Shown: piece by piece, positions 17,985 through 25,216 of the stretch
Layout: each line of letters starts with the position of its first letter
Position numbering within the stretch: position 1 is the first letter of the stretch
Assembly: GCA_904373325.1 (NCBI GenBank)
Contig: CAJFFP010000020.1
Span: 1-39,375 of the forward strand
DNA from: Candidatus Gallimonas merdigallinarum
GTDB taxonomy: Bacteria > Bacillota > Clostridia > Christensenellales > Borkfalkiaceae
DNA: 39,375 nt
Reading direction: 5' to 3'
Notes under the pieces: generated by a model
Database searches by the model: none
The model's input: the letters and a program-made list of their open reading frames with translations, nothing else
What the model was told of the DNA's origin: nothing
Translations under genes and position numbers: made by a program

Positions 17985-20063
17985 TTACTGACGCGACGCT
18001 TCGTTCAGGAAGTACGCCTGCGCGTCGAGCGGCTCGCCCAGCGTTTCCACCTTGCGGTATTCGCCGTCCGGGCACAGCTTGCGCGCCTTGACGTTATCGG
18101 CGAGCATCGTCTGCAAAATGCCCACAATGCGGTCGGCAATGCGGCTGTCCAGAACGGGAGCGGCGATCTCTACGCGCTTATCGGTATTGCGCGTCATAAG
18201 ATCGGCGCTTGAAATGTAGGTGACGCGGTCCTCCCCCCTGCCGAAGGAATACACGCGGGAGTGTTCGAGGAATCTTCCGACAATGCTGACCACGCGGATA
18301 TTCTCCGTCTTTTCGGGAACGCCGGGCAGCAGACAGCAGATCCCGCGGATGACGAGTTCGATTTTCACGCCCGCCGCGCTCGCCTCTGCAAACTTATCGA
18401 TGATCTCCTTATCGGTCAGGCTGTTCATCTTGGCGAGGATATATCCCTCTTCGCCGCGCTTTGCCTTTTCGATTTCGCGGTCCATGTACCCGATGAGTCC
18501 GCTTTTCAGCGTTTTCGGCGCAACGAGCAGGCGTTCGTACTCAAAATCGGTATTGCAGATGGAGACGTTGCGGAAGAACGCCACGGCGTCCTCGCCGATC
18601 TTCCGATCTGCCGTAATGATATTGAGGTCGGTGTATTGGCGGCTGGTCGATTCGTTGTAATTGCCCGTGCCGAGGTGGGTGATGTAGCGGAGCTGCTCCC
18701 CCTCTTTGAGCACGACGGAGATGATCTTGGAATGCACCTTGTAATTGTCCATGCCGTAGATGATGGTACACCCCGCCTCTTGGAGCTTGCTTGCAAAGTA
18801 CATATTATTCTCTTCGTCGAAACGGGCGCACAGCTCGATGACGACGACGACCTGTTTCCCGTTCTCGCTCGCGCGGCATAAAAGCTCGGCAATGCGGGAA
18901 TGGTGCGCAAGGCGGTAGATCGTGATCATGATCGAGCTGACGCGCTTATCCTTTGCGCACTCTTCGAGCAGATCGACGACGGGCGTCATGGCGTCGTACG
19001 GGTAAGAAAGGAACACGTCGTGACGGAACACCGTATCGATGAGCGAGGGCGCCATGGAGAGCTCGTCGGAGACGGCGCCCTTGAAGGGCGCGTATTTGAG
19101 GGGCGCGCTCTGCTCGGCGGAGAAGTAATTGCCCAGCGAGAAGAGGAACTTATAGTCGAAGAACCTTTCGTCGCAGAAACAGAACTTGGGATTGAGATTT
19201 AAAAGTTTGAGCACGAATTCTTTGAGCTTGCTCTCGGCGTTGTCCATTTCGAGGCGGACGACGTTGAGCTTCGCGCGCGACTCCACCTTCTTCTTCATGA
19301 TTTCCGAGAAATCGCGTTCAACGTCCGAATCGTCGATATGCGTATCGAAATCGGCGTTGCGGGTCACGCGCATGAGCATCTGTTCGTTGACGGTGTAGCC
19401 CGTGAACGCAAGTTTGCCGAACATACGGACAAGCTCTTCGAGCGGAATGAGGCGCACCTTCTTTTCGCCGCTCAGGCGGTACAGACGATCGAGCGACGGA
19501 TTGACGGAGATGACGCCGATCATGCGCCTGCCGTCCTTTTCGAGCTGGCAGATCATATAGCTGCGCTTGTTCTCAAACTGCATGAGCGGATGCTTGGCGT
19601 CAAGCACCATCAGCGACAGCAGCGGCAGGACGTGGCGGAGGAAAATCTGCCTGCATTCCTCCGTCTGGCGCGGCGTGAGGTCCTCTGCGCGCAGAATGCG
19701 CAGACCGTTTTTGCCCAGATCCTTGCGGAGCGCAGAATAGCAGACGGCGCGCATTTCGTAGAGCTTCTGCACGACGTCCGCAATGCCGTCGAGCTGTTTG
19801 GCGGAAGTCAGGCGCGTCTTGTTCTCCGTCGCCTGCGGCTCGGAAATGCTCTCGTTGTACAGGCTCCCCACCCGCACCATAAAAAATTCGTCGAGGTTGG
19901 AGGTGAAAATGGAGAGAAACTTGCAGCGTTCCAACAGCGGGTTGGTGAGATCGACCGACTGATCGAGAACGCGCTTGTTGAAGAGCAGCCAACTGTACTC
20001 GCGGTTGACGTAAATATCGCGGATAAACTTCTTCTTGATTTTTTGCGGAACTGTCAGTTTCAT
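17985..20063 (-). CDS. ppk: Polyphosphate kinase (PPK1)
   Basis: This 692-residue enzyme polymerises ATP gamma-phosphate into polyphosphate. The N-terminal part has YVNREYSWLLFNKRVLDQ and FLSIFTSNLDEFFMVRVGSL. The catalytic phospholipase-D-like core has VHSKIISVVLK, holding the phosphorylated His, then HLGTGNYNESTSRQYTDLN. The second His is in FLEHSRVYSFGRGEDR, followed by SSADLMTRNTDKRVE. The start at 20063 (MKLTVPQ) is preferred because the 27 codons upstream are arginine/proline-rich and overlap the end of the previous gene. The ribosome binding site is modest. It is the third gene of an operon with phosphofructokinase and a Ppx-like protein, 31 bases after the latter. Confidence 0.97.
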   Translation of the reverse strand: MKLTVPQKIKKKFIRDIYVNREYSWLLFNKRVLDQSVDLTNPLLERCKFLSIFTSNLDEFFMVRVGSLYNESISEPQATENKTRLTSAKQLDGIADVVQKLYEMRAVCYSALRKDLGKNGLRILRAEDLTPRQTEECRQIFLRHVLPLLSLMVLDAKHPLMQFENKRSYMICQLEKDGRRMIGVISVNPSLDRLYRLSGEKKVRLIPLEELVRMFGKLAFTGYTVNEQMLMRVTRNADFDTHIDDSDVERDFSEIMKKKVESRAKLNVVRLEMDNAESKLKEFVLKLLNLNPKFCFCDERFFDYKFLFSLGNYFSAEQSAPLKYAPFKGAVSDELSMAPSLIDTVFRHDVFLSYPYDAMTPVVDLLEECAKDKRVSSIMITIYRLAHHSRIAELLCRASENGKQVVVVIELCARFDEENNMYFASKLQEAGCTIIYGMDNYKVHSKIISVVLKEGEQLRYITHLGTGNYNESTSRQYTDLNIITADRKIGEDAVAFFRNVSICNTDFEYERLLVAPKTLKSGLIGYMDREIEKAKRGEEGYILAKMNSLTDKEIIDKFAEASAAGVKIELVIRGICCLLPGVPEKTENIRVVSIVGRFLEHSRVYSFGRGEDRVTYISSADLMTRNTDKRVEIAAPVLDSRIADRIVGILQTMLADNVKARKLCPDGEYRKVETLGEPLDAQAYFLNEASRQ

Positions 20064-20094
20064 GGTATCTTCTTTATCCTGCCCGATTATTTTT

Positions 20095-21435
20095 TTACGA
20101 GGGGTCCGCCTCGCCGTCGGCGGGCGCGGCGGGCGTTTCCGCATTTTCCGCAGGCGCGGGCGCGGTCTTCTTGGGTCTGCCGCGCCGCTTGGGAGCGGGC
20201 GTCCCGACAGGCGCGGGCACGCTCACGCTCTCCGTTTTTTCCGCGCTCTCTGCCGCGGGCGCAGCCTTCTTGGGTCTGCCGCGCCGCTTGGGAGCGGGCG
20301 TCCCGGCAGGCGCGGCGGCGGGCGATTCGGAAGCATTCTTCTTTGCTTCCGCCTTCTTTTCCGCGGAAGGCTTCTTTTCTTCGGAAGATTTCTTCTCTTT
20401 TTCGGCCGACTTCTCCTTGTCGGGAGACTTTTTGCCCTTTTCCTTTTTCTCTGCGGGCTTTTCAGACTCGGCGGGCGCAGTGCGCTCCTCGCCGCCCGTT
20501 TCGCCCGTTGCGAAATCGTACCACAGCCCCGTCTCCTTGCCTTCGAGCACGAGCTGCAAATACCCTTCCTTCACGCCGCGGTCGCTGACGACGATGTTAT
20601 CCACGCCGAACCGCTTGAAGAGCGTTTTCAGAACGACCGCCGCCGAACCGATGAGGTAGAGCTTTTCGGGCGCGTTGTTGAGAACGAGTTTGGAGCGGTC
20701 CTCCCCCGTGAGCAGATGCCGCACGAGCTTTTTGAATTTTTTGTAGCGGATGACCCTGACGCCGCCCTCCGTTTTTTCGTCGGCGTAATCGGCGTACACG
20801 TCGTAAATCGCCGCGTTTGCCGCGCCGACCATGACCGCCGTCGCATACACGCCCTCGCCGGGGAGTTCCGCGCGGTCGAACTTATCCTTGACGTACGCCC
20901 TGATCGCCTTCGCCTCCTTCTCGTCGGGGAAAATGTTCGAGACGAACTTGCGGTACAGATCGAGAAGCCCGAACGCAAAGAAGGTCATGTCTTCCTTGCG
21001 GCGTTTGGCGAGGTCGCACACCTCGATGCTCTTGCCGCCCAGATCGATGAGCACGGGGCGCTCGTAGGAGGCATAGTAGACGTTGGCAACGTAGTCGCAG
21101 TATGCCTCGGTGGCGGCGTCGATGAAGTTGACGGGGAAGCCCGTCTCCGCCTGCACGCGCGCGCGCACTTCGTCGAAATTCTCTATGTATCTGAGCGCGG
21201 CGGTCGAGATGAGATAGCACCGCTCCGCGCCGAAATTTTTGCAGGTATCCTTCATTTCGCGCAGGCAGTCAACAAGTTTTTCGATGCCGCGCTCCGTGAA
21301 TTTGCGCCCGTCGAGATAGTGCACGAGGCTGATCGGGAACCGCTCCTTGAAGAGGATCTCCGTTTTGCGCTCATCCGCCGCCGCCACGATGAGAGAAAGG
21401 CTGCTCGAACTGATGTCAATGACAGAATATTTCAT
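20095..21435 (-). CDS. Ppx/GppA-family phosphatase with an AT-hook tail
   Basis: This is a 446-residue protein. Residues 1 to about 305 follow the Ppx/GppA fold: VIDISSSSLSLIVAAAD, then LISTAALRYIENF, TEAYCDYVANVYY and LIDLGGKSIEVCDL. The two phosphate loops are altered from the usual DIGSNS and DIGGGS forms, so activity is uncertain. From about residue 318 the chain becomes a lysine/glutamate- then alanine/proline-rich tail of about 125 residues. The tail contains two copies of GTPAPKRRGRPKK, which match the AT-hook DNA-binding motif. The start at 21435 has an AAGGAG site. Its neighbour PPK1 makes polyphosphate, so this protein could degrade or sense it. The tail is encoded by duplicated DNA. 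Confidence 0.88.
   Translation of the reverse strand: MKYSVIDISSSSLSLIVAAADERKTEILFKERFPISLVHYLDGRKFTERGIEKLVDCLREMKDTCKNFGAERCYLISTAALRYIENFDEVRARVQAETGFPVNFIDAATEAYCDYVANVYYASYERPVLIDLGGKSIEVCDLAKRRKEDMTFFAFGLLDLYRKFVSNIFPDEKEAKAIRAYVKDKFDRAELPGEGVYATAVMVGAANAAIYDVYADYADEKTEGGVRVIRYKKFKKLVRHLLTGEDRSKLVLNNAPEKLYLIGSAAVVLKTLFKRFGVDNIVVSDRGVKEGYLQLVLEGKETGLWYDFATGETGGEERTAPAESEKPAEKKEKGKKSPDKEKSAEKEKKSSEEKKPSAEKKAEAKKNASESPAAAPAGTPAPKRRGRPKKAAPAAESAEKTESVSVPAPVGTPAPKRRGRPKKTAPAPAENAETPAAPADGEADPS
20167..20316. repeat. Pair of 50-bp direct repeats encoding the AT-hook segments
   Basis: 20167-20216 and 20266-20315 are identical apart from one base and lie 99 bases (33 codons) apart. Each encodes one GTPAPKRRGRPKK block, so the tail grew by in-frame duplication. 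Confidence 0.88.
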
Positions 21436-21460: not shown

Positions 21461-22534
21461 TTACGCGCGGTCGCCGAAAGAAATACCGATCTCGCGGGCA
21501 AAGCGCACCGTGTCGCCCGCGGGGTCTACGAATTTGTATTTGCCCGCGACGTCGGCAAGGGCGTTGAACGTGATCTTATTGTCTTCGAGCGCGACGGTCA
21601 CGCCGAACCGACCCTCCGCCGCAAGGCGCGCCGCATAGCCGCCCATGCGCGAGCACAGCAGGCGGTCGTACGCGCAGGGACTTCCGCCCCGCTGCAAATA
21701 TCCGAGGACGGAGTAGCGCGTCTCCGCGCCCGTGCGCTCGCCGATGACTTCGGCAAGGCGGCGGGTCACCGTGCTCTCCCCAAGCTCGGTGCGGACGAAC
21801 GCGCGCTCCTCTTTTTTAAAGCGCGCCTCGCTGTCGAGCACCGCGCCCTCCGCCACGGCGACCATGGAATAGCGCTCCCCCGCCTGCACGCGCGCGGCGA
21901 GGAACTCGCATACCGCGTCCACCGAAAAGGGAATTTCGGGAATGAGGATCATGTGCGCGCCCGCGGCAAGCCCCGCGTGCAGCGTGAGCCAGCCCGCCTT
22001 GTTGCCCATGACCTCCACGAGCATGATGCGGCTGTGGCTGCGCGCCGTCGTCTCGATGCGGCAGATGGCGTCCGTCGCGACCTCCACCGCCGTCTGGAAC
22101 CCGAAAGTGACGTCCGTGCCGTAAATATCGTTGTCGATGGTCTTTGGCACGCCGATGACGTTGCAGCCCTCCATACTCAGAAGCGCGGCGGTCTTGTGCG
22201 TTCCCGCGCCGCCCAGCGTGAAAAGGCAGTCCAGCCCCATTTTTTTGTAGTTGGCGACCATTCTGGAAAGGCGCGTGCCGCCCTCCTCCTGCACCGTCAT
22301 CTTTTTAAAGGGCTGGCGGGACGTGCGCAGAATCGTGCCGCCTACGTCCAGAATCCCTTCAAAATCTTCCTGCGCGAGCGGATAGCTCTCGCCGCGGATA
22401 AGTCCGCCGTATCCGTCGGGGATGCCGACGATCTCGGCGTTTTTGACGTTGCGCGTCAGATACATTCCGATGGCGCGGATGACCGCGTTCAGCCCCGCGC
22501 AGTCCCCTCCGCTCGTTAAAATTCCGAATTTCAT
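21461..22534 (-). CDS. 6-phosphofructokinase with a variant nucleotide-binding motif
   Basis: This 357-residue enzyme phosphorylates fructose 6-phosphate, the committed step of glycolysis. It opens MKFGILTSGGDCAGLNAVIR. The catalytic motif is VPKTIDNDIYGTD, and VEVMGNKAGWLTLHAGLAAG binds the sugar phosphate. Where ATP enzymes usually have GGDGS, this one has LGGAGTHKTA, with alanine for the Asp that binds Mg-ATP. The lysine in PKTIDND is common in PPi-using and mixed-substrate forms. The phosphoryl donor is therefore uncertain. The start at 22534 is chosen because the next upstream start (22582) lies inside the promoter. It is the first gene of an operon with Ppx-like and PPK1 proteins. Confidence 0.93.
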   Translation of the reverse strand: MKFGILTSGGDCAGLNAVIRAIGMYLTRNVKNAEIVGIPDGYGGLIRGESYPLAQEDFEGILDVGGTILRTSRQPFKKMTVQEEGGTRLSRMVANYKKMGLDCLFTLGGAGTHKTAALLSMEGCNVIGVPKTIDNDIYGTDVTFGFQTAVEVATDAICRIETTARSHSRIMLVEVMGNKAGWLTLHAGLAAGAHMILIPEIPFSVDAVCEFLAARVQAGERYSMVAVAEGAVLDSEARFKKEERAFVRTELGESTVTRRLAEVIGERTGAETRYSVLGYLQRGGSPCAYDRLLCSRMGGYAARLAAEGRFGVTVALEDNKITFNALADVAGKYKFVDPAGDTVRFAREIGISFGDRA

Positions 22535-22560
22535 ATTCCTCTTACAATCCTCCAAAATGT

Positions 22561-22589
22561 ATTGTACTATACCCGTCCGCACTTGTCAA
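22561..22589 (-). promoter_or_regulatory. Promoter of the pfk-ppx-ppk operon
   Basis: On the minus strand TTGACA (22584-22589) and TACAAT (22561-22566) are 17 bases apart, about 27 bases before the phosphofructokinase start codon. Confidence 0.9.
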
Positions 22590-22604
22590 TACGGCTTTGA
22601 TTTT

Positions 22605-22643
22605 TTTACACATATTTTACATCTGCGTTACATTTGCGTGACA
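22605..22643 (+). promoter_or_regulatory. Pho-box-like array of four hexamers
   Basis: Four hexamers, TTTACA (22605), TTTACA (22616), GTTACA (22627) and GTGACA (22638), are spaced exactly 11 bases apart. Bacillus PhoP sites are known as TT(A/C/T)ACA repeats with about 11-base spacing. The array lies 16-54 bases upstream of the -35 of the pfk-ppx-ppk promoter and reads on the opposite strand to the operon. PhoP control is inference from the spacing and the gene content. Confidence 0.7.
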
Positions 22644-22703
22644 ATTCGACGGTTTTCGCACGCGGCGGAGATGCAATCCGCGAAATTCCGCCGCGCAAAG
22701 ATT

Positions 22704-22733
22704 CCGCAGACGCGCCGGACGGCGCGTCTGCGG
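22704..22733. terminator. GC-rich hairpin after the topoisomerase A gene
   Basis: A perfect 13-bp stem (CCGCAGACGCGCC with its complement) with a 4-base loop lies about 40 bases after the topoisomerase A stop. On the minus strand AATCTTTG follows, not a strong T-tract. Confidence 0.55.
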
Positions 22734-22771
22734 GCATCGCGTGTTATAAAAATATCCGATCGGCGAGGAGG

Positions 22772-25216
22772 TCAGGATTCCTCCGCCTCGCGGTAGCGCA
22801 TGGCGTAAACTTCCTGCGCCTTCCACTTTACGCCTTTGAGCGTTCTGCCGCGAGTGTTCGTCGCGTCGATGGGGATCTCCTCCGTGCTCAGCTCCGTCAT
22901 CGTATCGTCCTGCGTGACGACGGCGAGCATATACGGCACGGTGACGTAGTTTGCGAAAATGACCTTCGCGCCTTTGAGCGAGGAGATCTGCACGCCCTTC
23001 CTGTACCGCGGCAGCGGGTCGATCTGCGCGGCGATGACGCGTTTGAAACGGCTCTCCGACGTGGCGATGACGATCTCGCCCTCGCCGTCGATCTGGGAGG
23101 CGAACACGACGCGGTCGCCCTCGCGGAGATTGATGCCCTTTACGCCGCCCGAGACGCGCCCCTGCACGGGAATATCGTCCTTCTTGGCGTTGAGGCACAT
23201 TCCGTCCTGCGTGACGAAGAACACGGTGACGCCCTCTTCGTCGGCGTCGGGCTGCACGTAGAGGAGCTTGTCTCCGTCGTTGAGACGGATCCCCTGAAAG
23301 ACGCTCTTGCCCACGGCGTATTCCGCCCACGCCGTCTTTTTGAGCATTCCCTTTTCGGTGATGAACAGCAGATTTCCGTTGCCGACTTCCGCGCGGAAGA
23401 GCGCAACGGGCTTTTCGTCCTCGGCGGCGTCCTCGTGCAGTTCGCAAAGGCGGAAACCCTGATCGGAGAACTTGCACCCGACCGTCTCGCCGTAAATGCG
23501 GTAGCAGTTGCCGTAATCGGAGATGACGAGCATCTGTTCGTCGGAGAGCAGGCGGATATGCTTGACGACGACGGAACTCGGCTTGGAATTGGGTCCGATG
23601 ATCTTGTTGGAAGAATTGAAGTTGCGCTCCGTCACGCATTTGAGCCTGCCGTCCGCGGTGATGCACGCCACGCTCTGCACGCCCGGTTCTTTGACGTCCG
23701 CGCGCTCCGCCTCCGCCTCGTCCTCCGAGAACACGAGCACGGACTTGCGCGGCGTCTTGTATTTTTTCTTGATTTCGAGAATCTCTTCCTTGACGACTTC
23801 GAGCTGTTTTTTCTGGCTGTTGACGATGGCGGTGAGCTTTTCGATCAGCTCTTTCAGCCGTTTCAGCTCCTCTTCCAGCTTATAAACTTCGAGCTTGGTG
23901 AGGCGGGCGAGACGGAGATCGAGGATCGCCTGCGCCTGCTTTTCGGAGAGCGAGAAGCGCTTCCGCAGCTTGTCGCGCGCGTCCGCCGTCGATTCGGCGT
24001 TCTTGATGATTTTGACGACCTCGTCGATATTGCGCACGGCGATGATGAGTCCTTCGAGGATATGACACCGCTCCTTTGCCGCCGCGAGGTCGAACTTGGT
24101 GCGGCGGAGGACGACTTCGCGCTGATAGTTCACGTAGTAGCGGATAATATCCATCAGCCCCATCAGCATGGGTTTGCCGCCCGCAATGGCGACCATGTTC
24201 ATGCCGAACGTCACTTCGAGGTCGGTGTATTTATATAGGATTTTCAAAATCTTGTTCACGTCGCCGTCGGGGCGCACCTCGATGACGGCGCGGATGCCGT
24301 CGCGGTCGGATTCGTCGCTCACGCGGGAGATCGCGGCAAGCTGTTCCTTCTTCTCCTCGCGAAGGTCGGCGATCTTTCTGAGCAGCGTGGATTTGTTCAC
24401 CTGATAGGGAAGTTCCGTAATGACGATGTTCTTTTTATCCCCATCGCCGTCCTCCACGCGCACCTTTGCGCGGATGAGAATGCGCCCTTTGCCCGTTTTG
24501 TACGCCTGATTGAGCTCGTTGGCGATGATGTACCCGCCCGTGGGGAAGTCGGGCGCGGGAATGTAGCGGAGCATCTCGTTGAACTTGATATTGGGATGAT
24601 CGATATAGGCGACCACGCCGTCGATCACCTCGCCCAGATTGTGGGGCGGGATATTCGTCGCAAGTCCCACCGCAATGCCCGACGCGCCGTTTACGAGGAG
24701 ATTGGGGAAACGCCCGGGGAGCATATCCGGCTCTTTGAGCGAATCGTCGAAATTGAGCGAAAACGGAACGGTGTTCTTATCGAGATCGCGCAGCAGTTCG
24801 AGCGCGAGCGGCTCCAAACGCGCCTCCGTGTAGCGCATGGCGGCGGCAGGGTCGCCGTCCACCGAGCCGAAGTTGCCGTGTCCGTTGACGAGCGTGCGCC
24901 CCATGTTGAAATCCTGCGCCATGCGCACCATGGCGTCGTACACCGAGGAGTCGCCGTGCGGGTGATATTTACCCATGCAGTCGCCGACGATACGCGCCGA
25001 CTTCTTATGCGGCTTGTCGGGCGTAAGCCCCATCTCGTACATGGTATAGAGAATGCGCCGCTGAACGGGTTTCAGACCGTCCTCCACGCGGGGAAGGGCG
25101 CGGTCGAGAATGACGAACTCCGCATACGGGAGCATTGCGGAAGGCAGGACCTCTTCGAGCGGCGTTACGAACAGGTTCCCCTGCGGTTCTTCCTGCTTCT
25201 TTTCCTCACGCTTCAT
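22772..25216 (-). CDS. Type II topoisomerase subunit A (gyrase/topoisomerase IV)
   Basis: This 814-residue DNA breakage-rejoining subunit contains [17 protein letters not shown], the [19 protein letters not shown] quinolone region (Ser and Asp at the usual sensitive positions), and the catalytic Tyr129 in MRYTEARL. The C-terminal part is a DNA-wrapping beta-propeller. The GyrA box, normally QRRGGKG, is replaced by a looser [10 protein letters not shown]. This makes a pure gyrase assignment uncertain; it may be the ParC-like second subunit found in many Clostridia. The ATG at 25216 overlaps the end of the B-subunit gene by 11 bases, with an AGGAGG site. It acts with the B subunit as a heterotetramer on DNA. 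Confidence 0.93.

Follow-up and report, generated by a model that had tools for sequence, protein, structure and literature searches.

The 39,375-nucleotide stretch of Candidatus Gallimonas merdigallinarum DNA analysed here (the window) carries four hexamers in tandem at 11-bp spacing upstream of an operon (pfkA2-ppx-ppk) that encodes a second phosphofructokinase (PFK), a Ppx-like protein and polyphosphate kinase; this array is probably the operator of the genome's own PhoP, which would activate the operon at a complete promoter when phosphate is short. We observed the array itself and found that it recurs in relatives, that arrays at pstS and npt-phoP are like it, that its distance to the promoter is helically phased, and that these promoters co-occur with phoP.

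Results

Array, promoter and operon

A sequence-only reading of the window had reported four TTTACA-like hexamers at exact 11-bp spacing upstream of a polyphosphate operon. The positions proved exact, with plus-strand starts at 22605 (TTTACA), 22616 (TTTACA), 22627 (GTTACA) and 22638 (GTGACA), each step being exactly 11 bp, and the whole array occurs once in the 1,560,207-base genome; it thus has the tandem direct repeats of 11-bp period of a PhoP box. The array does lie upstream of pfkA2-ppx-ppk, but since this operon is on the minus strand, the TTTACA-like reading is that of the non-coding strand; on the coding strand the boxes read TGTCAC-N5-TGTAAC-N5-TGTAAA-N5-TGTAAA, followed by 15 nt and then by TTGACA-17-TACAAT. 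The features are as follows.

22605..22643, minus strand: four-box PhoP-type array, recurring in relatives
22584..22589, minus strand: -35 hexamer TTGACA, with the array edge 15 nt upstream
22561..22566, minus strand: -10 hexamer TACAAT, after a 17-nt spacer from the -35
21461..22534, minus strand: pfkA2, second 6-phosphofructokinase with donor loop GGAGT and PKTIDND motif (Pfam PF00365; NF002872 over cut-off)
20095..21435, minus strand: ppx, Ppx/GppA-family protein (PF02541)
17985..20144, minus strand: ppk, polyphosphate kinase 1 (TIGR03705 over cut-off)

The TIGR03705 and PF02541 matches bear out the earlier statement that the operon encodes polyphosphate kinase and a Ppx-like protein; ppk as listed overlaps the end of ppx, and its start codon position is provisional. 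Upstream of the operon, gyrB and gyrA lie on the same strand, and a search of positions 22400-22850 found no terminator-like site between gyrA and pfkA2. The order pfkA2-ppx-ppk is kept in all 12 genus members with pfkA2, where the fetched locus stops inside ppk in four (G021, G034, G001 and G026). The Ppx-like protein of the window has DISSSS as its first motif and a K/E/S/A-rich C-terminal tail with two AT-hook-like KRRGRPKK motifs; a pattern that gave a row for 8 of 21 sources matched seven other Ppx proteins, six with 1 to 3 copies of KRRGRPKK and the seventh (G011) with KRRGRPPK.

The array compared with chance expectation

Four KTKACA boxes at 11 bp with at most three mismatches were found at five sites in the genome, as compared to none for a reversed-pattern control. 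When three consecutive boxes with at most two mismatches were sought, the window matched only at the array (two overlapping matches), a number reached in 0 of 100 shuffles (mean 0.01, largest 1). A hexamer weight matrix trained on ten arrays (seven at pstS and three at npt, with no pfkA2 array used) gave the window array 41.4 bits; the best of 300 shuffles scored 9.2, and none reached the array's score. With the same approach, the best four-box scores upstream of pfkA2 in the 12 genus members ranged from 9.6 to 41.4 bits, each reached by 0 to 2 of 300 shuffles, as compared to 157, 102 and 201 of 300 shuffles for three outgroup PFK promoters. Among five full arrays, hexamer columns were 96% identical and spacer columns 65%.

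TTTACA-like words arise easily in AT-rich upstream DNA, and T-runs of terminator-like sequence precede some of the relatives' arrays. A four-box scan (at most three mismatches) of 61 genomes of the order, i.e., 37 of the genus including the window's own and 24 of other families, found sites in 24 genomes, with 52 matches versus 8 for the reversed control (row sum), so lone sites in distant genomes can be due to chance. That the hexamers of the window arose by chance or from the composition of AT-rich promoter DNA is nevertheless exceedingly improbable, and we rejected this explanation on the genome scan (a single perfect array and no control sites), the shuffles, the conservation of boxes over variable spacers, and the prevalence of 11 bp and its multiples among the box spacings described below.

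Like arrays at phosphate genes and elsewhere

The sequence-only reading had likened the hexamers to PhoP sites and had proposed a search for similar sites at phosphate-uptake genes. Arrays of the same spacing were indeed found at pstS in the window's genome and in six congeners (G028, G013, G027, G011, G017 and G004), and at the Na/Pi cotransporter gene npt in three congeners (G027, with PF02690, G034 and G026); in G034 and G026, the array precedes an Na/Pi cotransporter-like gene with phoP at the right distance behind. The pstS promoter of the window's genome reads TTTACA-N5-GTGACA-N5-GTGCGG-N5-GTTACA, in which the third box is degenerate, followed by 9 nt and TATGAT. We inspected the surroundings of 25 sites at 23 loci in seven genomes of the sub-clade that shares pfkA2. 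Among the coding-strand arrays entered, 27 in number (24 from the inspected sites and the three pfkA2 arrays of G034, G001 and G026), box 4 is followed at a distance of exactly 9 nt by a -10 hexamer in 25, including all seven at pstS, all three at npt, and the three at pfkA2; the exceptions are the C30 array of the window's genome and one G004 lipoprotein array. Three further arrays (G028:C4:325 and the C30-type arrays of G015 and G004) have no -10 at 9 nt and bring the count to 25 of 30; the G021:C58 site and, at G013:C54, two overlapping registers do not enter it.

Further genes behind arrays include lipoprotein-like genes (judged by eye), small-RNA-like loci, and a gene whose product is probably secreted and has a choice-of-anchor domain as well as a lamin-tail match below cut-off. 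Pho-type arrays with a -10 at 9 nt behind were also seen at L069 (about 1872-1735, minus strand), L073 (two arrays), L084 and L087, as well as before a gene with a small 126-aa product, probably a membrane protein (L088/L017, G000:C7:28879-28917); behind the G015:C6 array (L072) stands a gene for 124 aa that looks similar by eye. The C30-type array precedes a small membrane-protein gene in G000 (L012, 7451-7489, contig C30), G004 and G015 (L071 and L083). At the arrays of the L069, L073, L084 and L087 kind, a conserved stretch of about 90 nt that ends in a hairpin and a T-run comes next in G028, G015 and G004 and is likely a PhoP-activated small RNA; this stretch had no Rfam match, and its fold z-score in G028 was only -1.7. 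In the window's genome (C14, upstream of a pgk-like gene), the array is kept and the downstream stretch differs from that of the three relatives. A comparison of six loci bearing Pho-type arrays, including L001 and L018, with Rfam gave no match.

The PhoP candidate

The genome encodes four response regulators with a Trans_reg_C domain. One of these stands in a cluster with the order pstS, one pstC/A-like permease gene, pstB, phoU, an Na/Pi cotransporter-like gene with PhoU domains, response regulator, and histidine kinase. By domains and context this is a PhoP-PhoR pair with pst and phoU, although regulator and kinase score below the PhoB, PhoR and PnpS equivalog cut-offs: the best NCBIfam model for the regulator is PhoB (180 bits, cut-off 296), the best models for the kinase are PnpS (205 bits, cut-off 400) and PhoR (178 bits, cut-off 334), and the binding protein scores 152 bits against the PstS family (cut-off 207). 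The names PhoP, PhoR and PstS therefore lean on context as well.

A PhoP orthologue (at least 71% identity) was found in 13 of the 61 genomes, all 13 among the 37 of the genus; 11 of the 12 genus members that carry pfkA2 and ppk (the window's genome included) have it, as compared to 2 of the 25 other genus members, related genomes being non-independent observations. G014 and G020 have a PhoP orthologue without pfkA2; in G011, the array is present and the orthologue was not found in an assembly that is 74% complete. With G011 set aside, the 13 genus members with a PhoP orthologue hold 33 four-box sites, a total that counts overlapping registers and C30-type sites, versus 6 sites over the 23 members without one. 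Together, the like arrays at pstS and npt, the PhoP-PhoR-like pair beside pst and phoU, and the co-occurrence of PhoP with pfkA2 point to a PhoP site, as the earlier reading had proposed.

Promoters of pfkA2 in relatives

Three designs were seen at pfkA2. In design (a), a reversed array lies upstream of a complete promoter; this design is found in the window's genome, G011, G015, G028, G004, G027, L168, L169, L172-L179 and L184, with four boxes in some and two or three in others. The distance from the array edge to the -35 in 16 of these 17 promoters is 15-16 nt (5 promoters), 25-26 nt (6) or 35-37 nt (5), with L174 at 37 or 15 nt depending on which weak box counts; in G004 it is 45 nt, or 35 nt when the count takes in a box spaced by 10 bp. 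The distances thus step by one helical turn: the phase concentration at a period of 10.5 bp is 0.919, a value reached by 0 of 20000 random sets, and by 85 and 203 of 20000 when the distances are thinned to five and three values, respectively. Design (b), a pstS-like four-box array on the coding strand with the -10 at 9 nt, is found in G034, G001 and G026, with weaker boxes (9.6 to 16.7 bits). In design (c), a complete promoter follows 30 nt behind two coding-strand boxes (G013, G017, G021 and L171); two coding-strand boxes in other settings were found at L200, L217, L222, L243 and L245.

Grouped by the loop that is GGAGT in pfkA2, the best 80 of 571 confirmed named loci divide into 47 GGAGT and 33 GGNGT loci. 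The GGAGT promoter set comprised 56 sequences, i.e., those of the 12 genus members and of 44 of the 47 named loci, L170 (a duplicate of G013) as well as L187 and L197 (upstream sequence absent) having been dropped. A two-box match of at least 14 bits was present in 26 of the 56 (shuffle mean 0.38, maximum 2), as compared to 1 of the 33 GGNGT-PFK promoters (shuffle mean 0.15, maximum 2); the other 30, among them G034, G001 and G026, have no such match, so control by the array is not universal. Same-strand box pairs in the 56 promoters were most frequent at spacings of 11 bp (24), 22 bp (10) and 33 bp (6), with 1 to 4 at each of the other spacings from 6 to 40; no same-strand pair was found in the 33 GGNGT-PFK promoters.

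The second phosphofructokinase

The housekeeping PFK of the window's genome sits elsewhere (C9:69761-70582), which is why we named the PFK of the operon pfkA2; we dropped the idea that the operon encodes the cell's only PFK, given this second locus and its promoter without an array (0.6 bits). Ten housekeeping PFK promoters were scored as controls with the hexamer matrix used above; apart from that of the window's genome, eight gave -7.2 to 7.4 bits and that of G026 gave 14.7. At L099 and L114, two-box matches in the housekeeping PFK promoters of G026 (18.4 bits) and G015 (15.4 bits), reached by 0 of 300 shuffles, extend the motif beyond pfkA2 among PFK genes, and the regulator may also touch the housekeeping PFK in these two genomes.

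With regard to its family, pfkA2 exceeds the cut-off of the ATP-dependent 6-phosphofructokinase subfamily NF002872 (358.5 vs. 253 bits), stays below that of the mixed-substrate model TIGR02483 (PFK_mixed; 354.8 vs. 430.55 bits), and is far below the models for pyrophosphate (PPi)-dependent PFKs. In an alignment to bacterial PFKs of known structure, GGAGT replaces GGDGS, and two Gly residues of those enzymes are replaced by Thr and Lys; residue numbers (103, 104, 108 and 124) are our reading of this alignment in E. coli numbering. In the housekeeping PFKs of the genus, the corresponding motifs are GGDGS and PGTIDND in the six checked. Lys in PKTIDND marks PPi enzymes, and pfkA2 resembles Group III/mixed-substrate and PPi-dependent PFKs in this Lys, in its Pfam family, and in Thr at E. 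coli Gly108. It differs from these PFKs in having Gly at 104 as in ATP enzymes, Ala for Asp at 103, and a tie to ppx-ppk; Gly rather than Asp stands at 104 in all 12 genus members with pfkA2. The portions of one paper available to us state that Asp at 104 marks PPi-dependent PFKs and that Gly104 permits nucleotide binding, that residues larger than Gly at 108 occur in PPi enzymes, and that Thr at this position is reported for one such enzyme (PMC10339645).

Among the same best 80 of 571 loci, ppk lies downstream in 44 of the 47 GGAGT loci, the other three of which reach contig ends, versus 1 of the 33 GGNGT loci; for ppx, the counts are 41 of 47 versus 0 of 33. Against a strict rule stands G044, in which a PFK with loop GGNGS has a ppk (28% identical) nearby on the other strand. 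A branch with 100/99 support has the GGAGT PFKs, six Spirochaetota sequences included, on one side; with a single supported branch, the loop and the linkage to ppk may share one origin and have travelled together afterwards. In six contigs of Spirochaetales/Spirochaetaceae (L205-L210), ppx and ppk follow a GGAGT PFK. At five other GGAGT-PFK loci (L199-L202 and L204, one of them from Candidatus Coproplasma), ppk lies behind and ppx was undetected. The nearest PFK among the matches listed is from an uncultured Clostridia bacterium (90%), and others, including one from Candidatus Gallimonas faecavium (chicken sample), are at 82-84%. That the GGAGT PFK is linked to ppk in two phyla suggests a functional tie to polyphosphate, though such linkage by itself does not identify the donor.

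Discussion

Our preferred mechanism is that phosphorylated PhoP, the OmpR/PhoB-type regulator of the pst-phoU-npt-phoPR cluster, would occupy the 11-bp tandem repeats as a head-to-tail row on a single helical face; from there, upstream of a complete sigma-A-type promoter, it would make a class I-like contact with RNA polymerase, so that phosphate shortage would stimulate transcription of pfkA2-ppx-ppk. Binding by PhoP, its dependence on phosphorylation, and activation rather than repression are predictions from sequence and genome content, as is a benefit from producing a second PFK together with polyphosphate enzymes. Repeats of 11 nt bound head to tail by an OmpR-type regulator are described for the Pho regulon, and ppk is an induced Pho target in other bacteria, in the parts of a published account available to us (PMC4415409). 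The arrays described here resemble the PhoP (PHO) boxes of Bacillus PhoP and E. coli PhoB in their tandem 11-nt repeats and in their presence, in this group, at pstS and npt-phoP as well. Unlike in known boxes, the target operon begins with a second phosphofructokinase, the window array has the opposite orientation to that at pstS and precedes a complete promoter rather than taking the place of the -35, and the hexamers often start with G. The consensus of the Bacillus PhoP box is TTAACA-type.

Two other ways to read the array as a regulatory site have to be weighed. One is that another regulator of the OmpR family, WalR-like or encoded on C30, binds it and that the operon answers another signal. 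WalR (YycF) sites, given as TGTWAH-N5-TGTWAH in the accessible text of one study (PMC9210968), have the same 11-bp period and a near-identical coding-strand half-site, which three of the four half-sites of the window fit and from which TGTCAC departs; the genome's four Trans_reg_C regulators include those on C15 and C2; and in G000, G004 and G015 a TTTACA-type array lies 2.5 to 4 kb from the C30-type regulator. The C30 regulator thus seems to own arrays of this type, and its recognition could overlap with that of PhoP. As WalR-type sites are alike, sequence by itself does not separate the regulators; distribution and gene content do, and they make PhoP the best candidate binder. Cell-envelope targets, as for WalR, were not what we found behind the window array, whose target is pfkA2-ppx-ppk and whose likes stand at pstS and npt-phoP. 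In addition, a search at E <= 1e-40 found no C30 regulator in 7 of the 12 genomes with pfkA2, some of these assemblies being incomplete; G027, G017 and G001, which do have arrays at pfkA2, are among the seven. The C30 array of the window's genome lacks the -10 at 9 nt; in G034, G001 and G026, the pfkA2 promoter has the architecture of a pstS promoter. Moreover, four-box sites are concentrated in genomes with a PhoP orthologue, while 21 of the 23 genomes without one hold other regulators that match PhoP at E <= 1e-25. On distribution, gene content and promoter build, we ranked WalR and the C30 regulator below PhoP and regard control by either, or by another OmpR-family regulator, as very unlikely.

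The other reading accepts PhoP and reverses its effect: PhoP would repress the operon at low phosphate, or unphosphorylated PhoP would act when phosphate is plentiful, with polyphosphate stored under plenty. The near-consensus promoter and the inverted orientation of the array with respect to pstS could mean activity without PhoP, or repression, and the Pho regulon is described, in the same partly available account, as activating and repressing genes in other bacteria (PMC4415409). The array, however, lies upstream of the -35 and not over or downstream of the promoter, its distance to the -35 steps by helical turns, and in G034, G001 and G026 the array takes the place of the -35, a pstS-like arrangement that an activator would be expected to have. 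Upstream position, helical phasing, and the pstS-like form in three relatives thus favour activation by PhoP, and we consider repression unlikely.

Under activation by PhoP, the evidence suggests that pfkA2 is a polyphosphate-linked glycolytic enzyme in a Pho regulon. A literature search, mostly of titles and the openings of abstracts, showed no PFK controlled by a Pho box and no pfk-ppx-ppk operon; we know of no described Pho regulon for the Borkfalkia/Gallimonas group, and the search showed none. In Streptomyces, one of several PFK proteins (SCO1957) belongs to a group upregulated in Pi limitation, according to the part of a proteomics paper that could be consulted (PMC8981147). What is new here is that pfkA2, by its sequence and neighbourhood, is a second isozyme beside the housekeeping PFK, with the loop GGAGT and a tie to ppk. 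As a tentative and somewhat doubtful extension, the GGAGT PFKs might be a distinct subfamily that works with polyphosphate, the donor being polyphosphate, pyrophosphate, or ATP made by Ppk out of polyphosphate, and PhoP might turn on this entry to glycolysis beside the housekeeping PFK at low phosphate in these gut Clostridia.

For the Borkfalkia/Gallimonas group, the arrays offer a usable motif and promoter grammar, i.e., a coding-strand array with the -10 at 9 nt or a reversed array at helical-turn steps from the -35. If the proposed control holds, a committed step of glycolysis would lie inside a bacterial Pho regulon together with the enzymes that make and break polyphosphate, and these anaerobic gut bacteria would provide a ready test of whether polyphosphate feeds glycolysis.
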